Shown here: piece after piece, positions 57,757 through 64,000 of the stretch
How the letters are laid out: every line of letters starts with the position of its first letter
How positions within the stretch are numbered: position 1 is the first letter of the stretch
Origin: Limisphaerales bacterium
Lineage (GTDB): Bacteria; Verrucomicrobiota; Verrucomicrobiia; Limisphaerales; UBA1100
Length of the DNA stretch: 64,000 bases
Assembly (NCBI GenBank): GCA_014382585.1
Contig: JACNJL010000060.1
Location: 1-64,000 of the forward strand
Reading direction: 5' to 3'
The notes under the pieces: model-generated
Databases searched by the model: none
Told to the model about the DNA's origin: nothing
Seen by the model: the letters and a program-made list of their open reading frames with translations, nothing else
Position numbers and translations under genes: made by a program

Positions 57757-58941
57757 TTATTCTGACTCACTCTGTCGTTTTTGTTCGGTGTCCAATAGTA
57801 ATGTGTGAGTTTCAGCCAGTATATCAGGAATGCGATCGGCAAACGGGCTGTTCCGAAGGGTTTCGGGCAGCCCGTAATGATCCAATTTTCCAACGTGTTC
57901 GCCTGGAAACCAATGATCGCCTTGACCTAGCAAATTGTAGCGCATCTTGCCCCAGTCCACCAAATCCAGCCCTTTGGCGTAGGTCCACAGGCGCAAGATT
58001 TCGGTGAGGTTAACCTCGCCCGGCACGTCCACATACTGCGGCAAACCTTCGGGCCAACGGGCGCACCAATCCGCGCCGTGGGTTTCGGTGAGAGCGTCGC
58101 GCAGGCGTTTTTCGATTGCGTCGAGGGTGGCGGAAATTGAGTCATCGTGTTCGAGTGCTGTGAGATGGCAGTCAAAATCCGAAGGCTTGGCCGCGCCGCA
58201 GCTCAACGTGTGCACTTCCGGTCGGTTCAAACAATAGAGATCATTAAACTGCATCGGGTGCAGCGGCGCACACAGTTCGGTGAGTTTGGGCGAGGGTGCG
58301 TACAGTTTGCCACCTTTGTCGTTGGGGCTGATGATGAAGACGCCCATGTCGCGCGCGGCGGCGGCTTCCACGGCTGGCCAGTTGAGGTCGTTCACGAAGT
58401 ACCAATGGAGGTTCACGTAATCAAACGCCTCGCTCTCGATGGTTTTAATAATGATGTCGGTGGTGGCGTGGGTGGAAAAACCGACGTGCCGCACGCGGCC
58501 TTCCTTTTGAAGCCAACGCGCCGCGGCCGCGCAGCCGTTGGGGCCGAGTGACTGGTCGAGAATTTCCTGATTGTTGATGCCGTGCAGTGAAAGTAAATCC
58601 ACGTAATCGAGTTGGAGATAATCCATCGATTGATTAAACGTATCGAGAAACTCGCGAGGGTTGGCCGAGGGAGCGACTTTGGTTTGGACGATGATTTTGT
58701 CGCGCGGAATTTTTTTGAGCACCGGCCCGAGTTGCATTTCGGATGAGCCATACCCGCGGGCGGTTTCGATGTGGTTGATGCCGACCTCGATGGCGCGATG
58801 AATCGTGGCTTCCAGGTTTTTCTGGCCGGCCTCGGGCACCTCGCTCCATTCGATATCGCTCCACTTGTGTTGATACCGCATTCCTCCGCAGGAGAACACG
58901 GGCATCTCTATGTCCGTTTTACCAAAGCGACGGTATTTCAT
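57757..58941 (-). CDS. aldo/keto reductase
   Basis: 394 residues. The N-terminal barrel begins MKYRRFGKTDIEMPVFSCGGMRYQ. INHIETARGYGSSEMQLG carries the catalytic tyrosine; the Asp of the tetrad appears changed (HIETARGYG against the usual FDTAxxYG). Lysine lies in KIIVQTKV and the YLQLDYVDLLSLHGIN strand carries the histidine. The C-terminal 100 residues (after the barrel) form the extra ferredoxin-associated type region but no 4Fe-4S cysteines are visible. It overlaps mqnD by 4 nt. Substrate unknown. Confidence 0.82.
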   Translation of the reverse strand: MKYRRFGKTDIEMPVFSCGGMRYQHKWSDIEWSEVPEAGQKNLEATIHRAIEVGINHIETARGYGSSEMQLGPVLKKIPRDKIIVQTKVAPSANPREFLDTFNQSMDYLQLDYVDLLSLHGINNQEILDQSLGPNGCAAAARWLQKEGRVRHVGFSTHATTDIIIKTIESEAFDYVNLHWYFVNDLNWPAVEAAAARDMGVFIISPNDKGGKLYAPSPKLTELCAPLHPMQFNDLYCLNRPEVHTLSCGAAKPSDFDCHLTALEHDDSISATLDAIEKRLRDALTETHGADWCARWPEGLPQYVDVPGEVNLTEILRLWTYAKGLDLVDWGKMRYNLLGQGDHWFPGEHVGKLDHYGLPETLRNSPFADRIPDILAETHTLLLDTEQKRQSESE

Positions 58942-59786
58942 GGCTCCACAAATTCCAATTCCGGTCGGTGATCAATCAGCCCCGCTTCGTGGGCTTGGCG
59001 GAGGAAGCGCGTGATGGTGTCGCGGCCTTTGTCGCCGTAGTCGAGCGTCCAGTGGTTGACGTACATTCCCACGAATTGATCGGCCAATTCCATTCCCATA
59101 TCGCGGGCGTATTGCAGCGCATGGGCGACGGCTTCGGGGCGATGGTCGAGGCTGTACTGGATGCTTTCGGTGAGCAGATCGCTGATGACTTTGCGTTCGT
59201 CGGCGGGGATGCGTTTGTGAATGACATTGCCGCCGAGCGGCATCGGCAGGCCATCGTTTTCTTCGCCCCACCACACGCCGAAATCCTGGCAGCAAACGAG
59301 TCCTTCATTTTCGTAAGTGAGCTGGCCTTCGTGAATGATGAGGCCGACATCGGCAGTGCCGGCGTTGACGGTTTGGAAAATTTCATCAAAGGGCACGACG
59401 AGGTAATCAATCTCGGCCTTCGTTTTCCCCAGCCACAATTGCAACGCGAGGAAGGCGCTGGTCATTTCGCCGGGGATGGCGATTTTTTTGCCAGCCATCT
59501 CTGCGCGTGAAATTTTTCCCGGAGCCACGAGCATCGGCCCGTAGCCATCGCCCATGCTCGCGCCGCTGGGGAGCAGGGCGTAATCGACGCTTACGGAGGG
59601 ATAGGCGTGGATGCTGATGGCGGTGATATCCAGCTCGCCGCGCGTGGCGCGTTCGTTGAGGGTTTGGATGTCCTGCAGGATGTGCTCGAACTCGTACCCG
59701 CGCGAATCAATGAGCCCTTCCGCGAGGGCATAAAACATAAAGGCATCGTCCGGATCGGGCGAATGGCCGAGCGTCAACTTCGTCAT
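58938..59786 (-). CDS. mqnD: 1,4-dihydroxy-6-naphthoate synthase (futalosine pathway)
   Basis: 282 residues, a periplasmic-binding-protein fold without signal peptide. Diagnostic parts: LTLGHSPDPDDAFMFYALAEGLID at the start (HSPDPDD), LDITAISIHAYPSVSVDYALLPSGASMGDGYGP in part, DVGLIIHEGQLTYENEGL with the catalytic-region histidine, and PLGGNVIHKRIP. It converts cyclic dehypoxanthine futalosine to 1,4-dihydroxy-6-naphthoate, so this organism makes menaquinone by the futalosine route. Other mqn genes are elsewhere. Confidence 0.93.
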   Translation of the reverse strand: MTKLTLGHSPDPDDAFMFYALAEGLIDSRGYEFEHILQDIQTLNERATRGELDITAISIHAYPSVSVDYALLPSGASMGDGYGPMLVAPGKISRAEMAGKKIAIPGEMTSAFLALQLWLGKTKAEIDYLVVPFDEIFQTVNAGTADVGLIIHEGQLTYENEGLVCCQDFGVWWGEENDGLPMPLGGNVIHKRIPADERKVISDLLTESIQYSLDHRPEAVAHALQYARDMGMELADQFVGMYVNHWTLDYGDKGRDTITRFLRQAHEAGLIDHRPELEFVEP

Positions 59787-59890
59787 CGCCGCGAATGTGG
59801 CCGAATGCCCGCGCTCTGTCCAACCATAGATTAAAAATGGCTGGCAATCCGGCGGGGCTCTGGCAGTCTCGCCCTCTGCTTTATCTGGCC

Positions 59891-61564
59891 ATGCGCGAGT
59901 ATTTCCTTAGACGACTGCTGTTAATTTTTCCCACGTTGTTGGTGATTACAGTGATTGTTTTTTGCATCACCCGCATCGCGCCGGGCGGACCGTTGGAGCA
60001 GGCGATGATGGAGATGCAGCAGGTTTCGCTGGAGGGAGGCGGAGGCTCCACCGAAGGCGGGTTGGCGATGAGCAAGGAGCAGCTCCAGCAAATGAAGGAG
60101 CTCTACGGCTACGACAAACCCATCCTCGAAGCGTACGTGATTTGGCTGGGGCTCAAACCGCGCGAGTTGAATCGCCGCAATGTGGAATTCAAGGATGGAG
60201 AAACGAAGGCCAACGCGAGGATGCGGATTCCGCCCTTTCACGTGGCGGAACTGGATTGGGACGGCGATGGCTATGTGCAACGCGCGGAGGTGCCGGATGG
60301 GCTGGCGTCGTACGTGAAGTTCGATCAACTGGATACCAATCGCGACGGGCAAATTGACGGGCAGGAGGCCGACCGCCCCGAAGCGGAAATCGAACGTGCC
60401 CGCGAGCGGGTGCATCTCGCGCGCGATGATGCAGGCGGCGTGCGCATTACCAATCCCGATGCGTTGATGGTGAATTGGAAAGTGCGAATGCGCGAGCCGC
60501 CTTCGGATGAACCGGATGCCCTGCCCAAAGCGGAAATTTATCGCACGCGCTACGCGGGCGTATTGCAGGGTGACCTCGGTAAATCTTTTCGCCACGGCGA
60601 GCCGGTGTCCACAGTGATGCTCAAACGTTTGCCGGTGTCCACTTTCTATGGGTTGCTGACTTTTTTAATCACCTTTCTCGTGTGCGTGCCGCTCGGCATC
60701 GCCAAGGCGATGCGGCATAATACGTGGTTCGACAACGGCACGTCGGTTTTCATTTTTATGGGCTACGCCATTCCCGGCTATGTGCTGGGCGCATTGATGA
60801 TGGTGTTTCTCGCCGCGCGCTGGGAGGTGTTTCCCACGAGTGGATTCACCAGCGAAAATTTTCATGATATGCCGGTGAACCAACTCAACGTATCGGCCGG
60901 GTCCAACGAATGGCACGCGCCCAATCATAAATTGCGCCACGGCGAGGAAGTGTGGTTGGAAGGACAACTCCCCCGCACCATACCGCCCGTGGCGGCGGAC
61001 ACGGCTTATTACGCGGAGGTGGTGGATGCCGATTCCTTCCGGGTGTTGCCCGATTGGAGCGAAGGCGCAACGCCAATTCGTGCGGAAATTTCGGCTACAG
61101 AAATCCGGATGAAACGCCACACGCCGCGCTGGACGCAAGTGAAGGATCTCGCTTGGCACGCAGTGTTGCCGTTGTGTTGTTATTTGGTGGGCAGCTTTGC
61201 GTTTGTGACAATGCTGATGAAAAATCATCTGATGGATAATCTCTCGGCCGATTATATGCGCACGGCGATTGCCAAGGGGGTTCCGTTTAGTCAGGCAGTA
61301 CGACGGCATGCGTTGCGTAATTCACTGATTCCATTGGCCACCAATCTCGGCCACCAAATTACCATCTTCGTGGCGGGCAGTTTTTTGATTGAAACGATTT
61401 TCGACATCGATGGGTTTGGATTGCTCGGATTCAAGTCCGTAATGGACCGCGATATCCCGGTGGTGATGGGCATCTTTTTGCTTTCGGCCACGTTGATGCT
61501 CATCGGCAATATTATTTCAGATATCCTAGTGGCGTTAGTGGATCCACGCGTGCGGTTTAATTGA
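59891..61564 (+). CDS. YejB-type peptide ABC transporter permease with EF-hand insertion
   Basis: 557 residues, about 190 more than E. coli YejB. The ends match YejB: MREYFLRRLLLIFPTLLVITVIVF and IAPGGPLEQA, later SFLIETIFDIDGFGLLG and ALVDPRVRF. Between the YGYDKPILEAY segment (about 73-82) and LQGDLGKSFRHGEPV (about 225) lies a periplasmic insertion with two perfect EF-hand loops, DWDGDGYVQRAE (122-133) and DTNRDGQIDGQE (148-159). A second insertion (about 333-405) splits the NFHDMP/W-H-A-V-L-P region. It imports peptide-like solutes with the YejE partner; calcium binding is inferred. Confidence 0.85.
   Translation: MREYFLRRLLLIFPTLLVITVIVFCITRIAPGGPLEQAMMEMQQVSLEGGGGSTEGGLAMSKEQLQQMKELYGYDKPILEAYVIWLGLKPRELNRRNVEFKDGETKANARMRIPPFHVAELDWDGDGYVQRAEVPDGLASYVKFDQLDTNRDGQIDGQEADRPEAEIERARERVHLARDDAGGVRITNPDALMVNWKVRMREPPSDEPDALPKAEIYRTRYAGVLQGDLGKSFRHGEPVSTVMLKRLPVSTFYGLLTFLITFLVCVPLGIAKAMRHNTWFDNGTSVFIFMGYAIPGYVLGALMMVFLAARWEVFPTSGFTSENFHDMPVNQLNVSAGSNEWHAPNHKLRHGEEVWLEGQLPRTIPPVAADTAYYAEVVDADSFRVLPDWSEGATPIRAEISATEIRMKRHTPRWTQVKDLAWHAVLPLCCYLVGSFAFVTMLMKNHLMDNLSADYMRTAIAKGVPFSQAVRRHALRNSLIPLATNLGHQITIFVAGSFLIETIFDIDGFGLLGFKSVMDRDIPVVMGIFLLSATLMLIGNIISDILVALVDPRVRFN
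60254..60367 (+). other. paired EF-hand segment within the YejB-type permease
   Basis: Two 12-residue calcium loops with Asp at 1, 3 (Asn in the second), 5, Gly 6, Val/Ile 8 and Glu 12, spaced 26 residues apart. The topology (after TM1 and before TM2) puts them in the periplasm. No other EF-hand is seen in the window. Confidence 0.9.
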
Positions 61565-62919
61565 TGATGCAACCGGCGACCGACCAACCCGAAACCGCTC
61601 AATCGCCCCGCGCGCGCTGGGAGATTGCCGTGTTGTTGTTGGTGGGGTTGGCCTCGGGATTTGCCGTGGGTGGATTTCTCGGCGGCGTGTTGGGCGCGCC
61701 GTTAGGGGGATGGTTGCTGAACTCCGCTGAGCCGGGTGCGGGTGTGATTGCCGGCGTTAAGAAGGGCTTCATAATTTTGGGCGCCCTCGGCGCGGTGGCC
61801 GGATTGGTTTGGGGTGCGCGCGGGCGGTTTAATCCGCAGACGCGCCGTAAGCTCAAGCGATTTTATTCCATCAAGCGCGGGTACATTTCATTTCTGCTAT
61901 TGCTCGGGGCGTTCGGGTGTTCGTTGCTCGGCGAGTTGCTGGTCAACAACCGCGCTTTGTTGGTGAGCTATGAAGGGAAACTGTTCTACCCCCTCTCGCC
62001 TTTTTCGCGAATACATACTGGCAAGGAATTTGGTTTTCAAAAAGATCGCTCGGGGCAGGATTATACGTTTGAGGTAAACTACCGAGAATTGAAGGAGGAC
62101 TTTGCCAAACAAAAATCAGGCAATTGGGTGCTGATGCCGCTTGTGCCCTTTAACGAATACGAAAATGATTTTCGCGAAGGCCTGGTGCATCCGGCCGCGC
62201 CCAATTTTGCAATGCAACATTATCTCGGCACCGATCGCACGGGGCGCGATGTGTTGGCGCGATTGCTTTATGGCTTCCGTATCACCATGATTTTTGCGTT
62301 GGTGTTTATGCTGATGGTGTATTTGATCGGCGTGGTGGTCGGTTGTTTGATGGGTTACTTTGGCGGTTGGGTGGATCTCGCGGGGCAGCGTGCGGTAGAG
62401 GTGTGGCAGAACATTCCGTTTTTGTATATGGTCATCATCGTGGTGGCCGCGGTGAGCGACTTGCCGTTCACGTTGCCAGCGTGGTTCAAAATCCTCGTGC
62501 TATTGGCGATCATGGTGGTGTTTAGTTGGACGAGTATGACGTATTATATGCGCACAGCGGTGTACCGCGAAAAGGCACGCGACTACGTGGCGGCCGCGCA
62601 ATTGTTGGGTGCGAGCACGCCGCGCATTTTGCTTAATCACTTGCTGCCCAATACCATTTCCACGATGGTTACCTTTATGCCATTCACCGTAGCCACGGCG
62701 ATTATTTCGATCACGGCATTGGATTATTTAGACTTTGGGTTGCCCAAGCCCACGCCGAGTTGGGGCGAGTTGCTGCAGCAGGGGGTGGCGAATCTGCACG
62801 CGCCGTGGATCGTGCTTTCGGCATTTGTGGCGATGGTGGTGGTGCTCACTCTGGTCACCTTCATCGGTGAAGGCGTACGTGAGGCGTTTGATCCCAAAAA
62901 ATTTACAACCTACGAATAA
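61564..62919 (+). CDS. YejE-type peptide ABC transporter permease
   Basis: 451 residues. The start ATG (61564) overlaps the upstream stop. The N-terminal 100 residues hold two glycine-rich membrane segments not found in E. coli YejE. Then RALLVSYEGKLFYP, the GW.LMPLVPF-like segment and YLGTDRTGRDVLARLLYGFRIT follow YejE closely. The permease core has YVAAAQLLGASTPRILLNHLLPN (EAA-like loop) and LDYLDFGLPKPTPSWGELLQQG. It ends GEGVREAFDPKKF like YejE. It pairs with the preceding permease. Confidence 0.88.
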   Translation: MMQPATDQPETAQSPRARWEIAVLLLVGLASGFAVGGFLGGVLGAPLGGWLLNSAEPGAGVIAGVKKGFIILGALGAVAGLVWGARGRFNPQTRRKLKRFYSIKRGYISFLLLLGAFGCSLLGELLVNNRALLVSYEGKLFYPLSPFSRIHTGKEFGFQKDRSGQDYTFEVNYRELKEDFAKQKSGNWVLMPLVPFNEYENDFREGLVHPAAPNFAMQHYLGTDRTGRDVLARLLYGFRITMIFALVFMLMVYLIGVVVGCLMGYFGGWVDLAGQRAVEVWQNIPFLYMVIIVVAAVSDLPFTLPAWFKILVLLAIMVVFSWTSMTYYMRTAVYREKARDYVAAAQLLGASTPRILLNHLLPNTISTMVTFMPFTVATAIISITALDYLDFGLPKPTPSWGELLQQGVANLHAPWIVLSAFVAMVVVLTLVTFIGEGVREAFDPKKFTTYE

Positions 62920-62923
62920 CATT

Positions 62924-64000
62924 ATGAAAACCACATCCAAATTAAGCGGCCTGATTTTGGCCGCTGCGTTGCTGGCCTTCACCGGTTGCAACGAGAAAAA
63001 ACTCAAACGCCCCGCCGATGCCAGCACCGGCACGCAACCCGCCGCACCCACCGGCGGGGTGGACAAAGCATTCGCACGTGAATTGGCGCGGGAGTTTGCC
63101 CGCGAATTCGCACGCGAACTGGCCAAGCAAAACATCACCTTGCTCGGGGGCGGGGGGGAGACTGCTCCCATTAATCCCGCCCAGCCAACCGGCGCGGCGG
63201 TGGAGCTGAATAGCGCGGAGGAAGTGCAGGCTTTTTACGATGCGAATCCAAAGGCGTTTGTGGTGGCCACTGCAGCGGATTTGCCCACAAATTTGCAATG
63301 GGAAAACGGCAGTGAACTCAAGGAATTCGCCAGCCCTAAGGCCAAGCGCGGCGGCACGTTTCACGAATATATGGCTGATTTTCCACGCACTTTGCGTTTG
63401 GTGGGGCCGGATGCCAGCGGTTCATTTCGAAGTCATATGCTGGACTATAACTCGCTAAATTTGGTGATGGCTCATCCCAATGGCGATGGATACTTCCCCG
63501 GCTTGGCGAAAGAATGGGCATACAGCGTGGATCGCAAGACGGTGTATTTTCGGCTGGATCCGGACGCGAGTTATTCGGATGGCAAACCGGTGCGGGCCAC
63601 GGATTATTTTTTCTCACTGTATTTTTTCCGCAGCGAGCACATCAAAGCGCCGTGGTACAACGATTTTTTCAGCGAGGAAAAATTTCCGAACATCACCCTT
63701 TACGACGAGCACACGCTGTCGATCACCTATTACAAAGCCAAACCGGATGTGATCGAGCGCATTGCCGGGGTGCGACCTATTCCAGAACATTTTTATAGCG
63801 AACTGGACGAGCAGTTTGTGGAGGATTTTCAGTTCAAGTTCGAGCCCAACACCGGCCCATACGAAGTGCGCACGGAGAACGTGGAGAAAGGGAAATCCAT
63901 CACGCTCACCCGCGTGCCAAACTGGTGGGCGGACAAAAAGAAGTTTTATCGAAATCGCTTTAATCCGGAAGCCGTGAAAGTGAGTGTGGTGCGCGATCCG
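62924..64000 (+). CDS. peptide ABC transporter substrate-binding lipoprotein (YejA/OppA-like), partial
   Basis: 359 residues seen; no stop before the window end. The signal ends LAFTGC, a lipobox with C22. An Ala/Pro/Thr spacer and a strongly periodic helix (FARELAREFAREFARELAK, residues 50-68) precede the binding domain. SBP_bac_5 features follow: KRGGTFHEYMADFPRTLR, LAKEWAYSVDRKTVYFRLDPDASYSDGKPVRATDYFFSL (in part) and NTGPYEVR. It should deliver peptides to the two permeases upstream. The order permease-permease-binding protein differs from E. coli yejABEF. Confidence 0.88.
   Translation, partial: MKTTSKLSGLILAAALLAFTGCNEKKLKRPADASTGTQPAAPTGGVDKAFARELAREFAREFARELAKQNITLLGGGGETAPINPAQPTGAAVELNSAEEVQAFYDANPKAFVVATAADLPTNLQWENGSELKEFASPKAKRGGTFHEYMADFPRTLRLVGPDASGSFRSHMLDYNSLNLVMAHPNGDGYFPGLAKEWAYSVDRKTVYFRLDPDASYSDGKPVRATDYFFSLYFFRSEHIKAPWYNDFFSEEKFPNITLYDEHTLSITYYKAKPDVIERIAGVRPIPEHFYSELDEQFVEDFQFKFEPNTGPYEVRTENVEKGKSITLTRVPNWWADKKKFYRNRFNPEAVKVSVVRDP

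Follow-up and report, generated by a model that had tools for sequence, protein, structure and literature searches.

In the window, the whole 64,000-nucleotide stretch of DNA analysed here, a permease subunit of a putative peptide importer carries, by its sequence, a genuine pair of EF-hand loops. The permease belongs to a known family, and the novelty would lie in the presence of an EF-hand pair in an ABC importer permease. The features discussed below are as follows (coordinates, strand, assignment and basis).

58938..59786, minus strand: divergent neighbour, used as flank control, which tracks genus and not cassette allele (identities, trees)
59891..61564, plus strand: peptide-importer permease subunit (DppB/OppB/YejB-like), long form, 557 aa (homology, fold match)
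60149..60556, plus strand: periplasmic accessory domain, residues 87-222, between helix alpha3 and TM2 (alignments, DppB profile)
60227..60406, plus strand: EF-hand hairpin graft, residues ~113-172, ~60 residues (alignment against short forms)
60254..60289, plus strand: EF loop 1, DWDGDGYVQRAE, residues 122-133 (Pfam EF-hand models, ligand pattern)
60332..60367, plus strand: EF loop 2, DTNRDGQIDGQE, residues 148-159 (Pfam EF-hand models, ligand pattern)
60848..61126, plus strand: second graft, residues ~320-412, ~93 residues, in the TM3-TM4 periplasmic loop (AlphaFold, fold match)
61561..62919, plus strand: partner permease (DppC/YejE-like), long-cassette version (family profiles)
61561..61824, plus strand: N-terminal extension of the partner permease, ~88 residues (comparison with the short cassette)
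62924..64000, plus strand: substrate-binding lipoprotein, 718 aa, third cassette gene, running past the end of the window (profiles, synteny)

The open reading frame that encodes the permease spans 59795-61564 on the plus strand, but its relatives align well only from the methionine at 59891, and the most likely start is therefore the ATG at that position (MREYFLRR...), giving a product of 557 aa. The product matches BPD_transp_1 (PF00528) with 110.8 bits against a cut-off of 26.4, and its model resembles DppB and OppB with Z scores of 23-26. The initial annotation had called it YejB-type. YejB (NF011712) is indeed its best NCBIfam model, but the score of 219.2 bits is far from the cut-off of 445 and ties with that of Opp4B (218 bits, cut-off 450), and the ATPases are encoded by two genes with no fused YejF, so the label is a loose one. 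The YejABEF importer of microcin C and peptides has a YejE-like partner, as does the operon described here, whereas its ATPase is a single fused YejF; we know of no EF-hand pair in YejB. Downstream of the permease lie the partner permease, the binding lipoprotein and two ATPase genes, the layout of Dpp/Opp-family operons with two permeases, an extracytoplasmic binding protein and two ATPases. The protein is thus best described, on homology, as a Dpp/Opp/Yej-type permease carrying an unusual graft, and its substrates are putatively peptides, by family membership. The same genome encodes a second DppB-like permease (G000:C26, locus L002, 739-1902), which is shorter (388 aa) and has no EF-hands.

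The initial annotation had located the EF-hand pair at 60254-60367, and these limits are exact. The Pfam models EF-hand_5, EF-hand_6 and EF-hand_1 exceed their cut-offs (25.4-30.6 bits, E down to 2.1e-7) in separate searches of the 39-aa segment or of the loop; in a scan of the full-length permease the EF-hand score falls slightly below the cut-off (22.9 versus 25.9). EF profiles matched seven of the seven long forms scanned. A chance origin was rejected, as two matches to the ligand pattern did not occur once when the protein or its loop was shuffled 200,000 times. In a survey of homologues, the insertion and its acid/Asn-type ligands were retained in all eight long-form relatives (L005-L008, L010, L083, L009 and L011, the last two with some unread bases): acidic residues or Asn occupy positions 1, 3 and 5, with Glu at 12, and the only ligand position that varies is position 3 of loop 1 (D or N). 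Synonymous sites are near saturation between the two genera concerned, and the ligand positions are the same in type; the hairpin has a dN/dS of ~0.04-0.14 between relatives, indicative of purifying selection. Segment-level Pfam matches, ligand conservation and the shuffle test together uphold the pair as real.

Its fit to the EF-hand consensus, claimed for every key position, holds for the ligands at 1, 3, 5 and 12 but not for Trp at position 2 of loop 1 or for the Ala that follows loop 2. Position 2 of loop 2 is Thr, and position 9 of loop 1 is Gln, Arg or Lys, a departure from calcium-sensor EF pairs. A stricter PROSITE-style pattern matches neither loop. The two loops are indeed paired, as had been proposed, but their spacing is not that of a calcium-responsive pair: the linker has 14 residues, whereas typical calcium-responsive pairs have ~25 and lanmodulins 12-13 (PMC10232371). 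For the full permease (27 relatives), the transmembrane part and the second graft of the AlphaFold model were usable, but pLDDT was <50 over residues 115-169; a prediction of the 150-residue loop alone (seven relatives) was poor, with a mean pLDDT of 51.7. These models are uninformative on the hairpin, and its helix-loop-helix fold is, like calcium binding by the pair, putative.

A profile built from the 27 relatives matches E. coli DppB (E 1.4e-71) as far as residue 70 and picks it up again at residue 72, so that the extra sequence falls immediately behind helix alpha3, within the TM1-TM2 loop. In cryo-EM structures of the E. coli protein, the TM1-TM2 and TM3-TM4 loops are periplasmic, and a scoop motif in the TM1-TM2 loop docks in the cleft of the binding protein DppA (PMC12136057). 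By analogy, the EF-hand pair is assigned to the periplasmic side, near the scoop motif, in agreement with the outside-cytoplasm placement of the initial annotation. A cytoplasmic location was set aside, the loop being periplasmic in DppB. DppB (DppABCDF, PDB 8z1y) and OppB share the permease fold (Z 26.1 to 8z1y), the scoop region and the coupling loop with the long-form permease. At the point where the long form has the accessory domain and EF-hand pair, between residues 70 and 72 of DppB, the latter has no counterpart, and it also lacks a barrel in TM3-TM4.

The insertion is missing from E. coli DppB, as had been noted for E. coli YejB, but much of it is not new. Relatives across Verrucomicrobiae have an EF-free, shorter accessory domain at the same place, and class relatives aligned to the flanks of the hairpin and not to the hairpin itself. 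By these comparisons, much of the extra sequence is an older, class-wide accessory domain, and the new part is the ~60-residue hairpin alone. The graft-free sister permeases of the same family and of Verrucomicrobiae (L012-L015, L052-L079) share the accessory domain after alpha3 and lack both the EF hairpin and the TM3-TM4 barrel; L012-L015 occupy the same gene slot as the long form. In the short-form sisters, two strands are linked by a short turn (VRVRL-VEGEAKKKRMRLERD), whose place is taken by the EF hairpin in long forms. Such a graft is plausible, because in rat CD2 a DxDxDG loop put between two strands sufficed to make a calcium site (PMC3123361).

The hairpin is accompanied by a second graft, in the TM3-TM4 loop, which the initial annotation did not mention. 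The two grafts co-occur: both are present in every long form and both are missing from every short form. The pLDDT is 79-90 across most of the second graft, for which an FCCH-like beta-barrel fold is predicted. In VIA-align, residues 327-410 matched the FCCH part of ubiquitin E1 (4ii3_C) with Z 8.0 and an rmsd of 2.5 over 71 residues; since a Z of 8 borders on the chance level, the FCCH identity stays a prediction. The fold matches included numerous E1 entries as well as two from phage tails, and E1 FCCH and the phage tail proteins resemble the graft in predicted fold and not by any sequence-family match. No family was found for it in Pfam, and a PHROGs search gave weak tail-fibre matches and no clear family. 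The second graft evolves faster than the rest of the permease (dN/dS 0.16-0.44).

The genes around the locus follow the same order in long- and short-form genomes. In the trees for yejB, yejE and the binding protein, long and short forms separate with support of 100/100, cutting across the genus border, whereas trees of the flanking AKR and MqnA-like genes split by genus (support 99-100), and those of DppD, DppF and GluQ show no long/short split. Within the genus, long and short versions of the three cassette genes are 59-60% identical, compared with 85-93% for the flanks and ATPases; between genera, long cassettes are 70-73% identical. Both permease genes and the gene for the binding protein form one cassette with two alleles in the same syntenic slot, long with both grafts and short with neither. 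This unit behaviour is seen at 59891-64000 of the window and at L080-L092; the ATPase genes and flanks lack the split. The simplest explanation of these trees and identities would be in-place replacement of the three-gene unit, the alternative being an ancient tandem duplication followed by reciprocal loss.

The other two cassette genes also differ between alleles. The N-terminal extension of the partner permease, which contains two glycine-rich hydrophobic stretches, is absent from the short cassette, and the N-terminal linker of the binding protein is longer in the long allele. After the lipobox, this linker is repetitive, rich in alanine, arginine and glutamate, and helical-looking (AFARELAREFAREFARELAKQ). 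The binding protein itself matches the NikA and Opp4A models far under their cut-offs.

Seven of the eight long-form relatives belong to two genera of one family; the eighth record, L083, has no genus label. Searches in overlapping samples of the order (320 genomes), the phylum (388) and the class (384) turned up no EF-bearing permease outside the family. The record titles of the relatives name ERR599 runs and a Fram Strait sample, which we take to indicate marine MAGs, and the host group of the long form is probably marine. The initial annotation knew of no described EF-hand peptide permease, and our literature search likewise found no EF-hand ABC permease, weak evidence of absence as most subscription papers lay outside it. 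The mitochondrial ATP-Mg/Pi carriers (SCaMC) also combine a small-molecule transporter with EF-hands, whose regulatory role has been described (PMC6283063), but these carriers belong to an unrelated transporter family and their EF-hands form a separate domain.

We lean, with moderate confidence, towards a structural role for the pair, in which two permanently bound calcium ions make it a rigid clip that shapes the docking surface for the binding protein, as a co-adapted part of the cassette. Seawater calcium is steady at about 10 mM, a level at which ordinary EF-hands in a marine periplasm would be expected to stay saturated. The compact pair, inserted into a beta-hairpin turn of the older accessory domain just after alpha3 and near the scoop, would bind two calcium ions and be occupied throughout, presumably permanently. 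So filled, it may fold as a rigid clip, stiffen the tip of the accessory domain, and shape or extend the face that receives the cognate binding protein, a role suggested by its proximity to the docking site. The predicted FCCH-like barrel inserted between TM3 and TM4 is the second periplasmic graft. Together with the hairpin, the partner permease with its extension and the binding protein with its longer linker, it would make up one co-adapted three-gene cassette. At this locus, a cassette free of grafts is the alternative, and both use the same ATPase genes.

The same proximity to the scoop and docking region could favour an importer in which calcium coming on and off the EF-hand pair switches binding-protein docking or transport. 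We consider this quite unlikely, because calcium is steady in the sea where the relatives appear to live and would carry no signal, the linker is short compared with those of calcium-responsive pairs (PMC10232371), and sister species run a graft-free transporter at the same locus. The initial annotation had suggested gating by external calcium, and we part from it here: the sisters use the same transporter, in the same slot, without the hairpin, and a marine periplasm would probably saturate EF-hands. The broader proposition, that docking or the gate is under the direct control of a periplasmic metal (calcium or, with lower probability, a lanthanide) through the EF-hand pair of a swappable three-gene cassette, is given similarly little weight. 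If the EF-hand pair and the FCCH-like barrel were instead tethers, binding for example peptidoglycan, a porin or receptor of the outer membrane, or a further copy of the transporter and so holding the importer near its substrate source, the presence in one cassette of two separate periplasmic additions, a long linker in the binding protein and an extension of the partner permease would be accounted for, and the phage tail proteins with FCCH-like folds among the fold matches would be in keeping; but no candidate partner is at hand and neither graft has a known binding motif, and we regard tethering as unlikely.

That the hairpin is a neutral decoration, merely tolerated in a permissive loop, would agree with its absence from the short-form sister transporters and with its low-confidence structure prediction. 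However, its ligands are kept despite near-saturated synonymous sites between genera, and it is common to all long forms in two genera, which makes neutrality very unlikely. A site for another metal such as a lanthanide is highly improbable, even though lanmodulin is the best solved-structure sequence match to the hairpin (E 3e-4) and the 14-residue linker is near the 12-13 residues of LanM (PMC10232371). Lanmodulin (6mi5, 8fns) is likewise a bacterial EF-hand protein with a short inter-loop linker, but it is free-standing and lanthanide-selective, with four EF-hands and a proline at position 2; of the two permease loops, only one has Asp at position 9. Membership of the lanmodulins was rejected, since the permease has two EF-hands and not four, and Trp and Thr at position 2 where proline would stand. 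A Pfam search found EF-hands at four places in the genome of the window, the permease included, and the other EF proteins have linkers of 11, 14 and 19 residues. Short linkers are thus common in this genome, and the spacing is unspecific and does not make the permease a lanmodulin.

One genus offers natural pairs with and without the grafts at one locus, in which effects of the grafts on binding-protein docking are directly testable. The swap is also a hint that the permeases and their binding protein move together as one unit, with the ATPase genes remaining in place, and such unit exchange bears on how importers change specificity.

Searches with the hairpin alone gave, beyond the long-form permeases, weak matches with E no better than 4e-6. 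The only match in the order that lies outside the family and covers the EF region (G048/L046) was rejected as a permease, being a beta-propeller-like protein with its own EF-hand pair. In this reverse-strand frame (505 aa, of another family) the two loops are 13 residues apart and the flank is similar to that of the permease hairpin (E 7.7e-6). The likeness hints that compact EF hairpins may have been inserted repeatedly between beta strands in the order.
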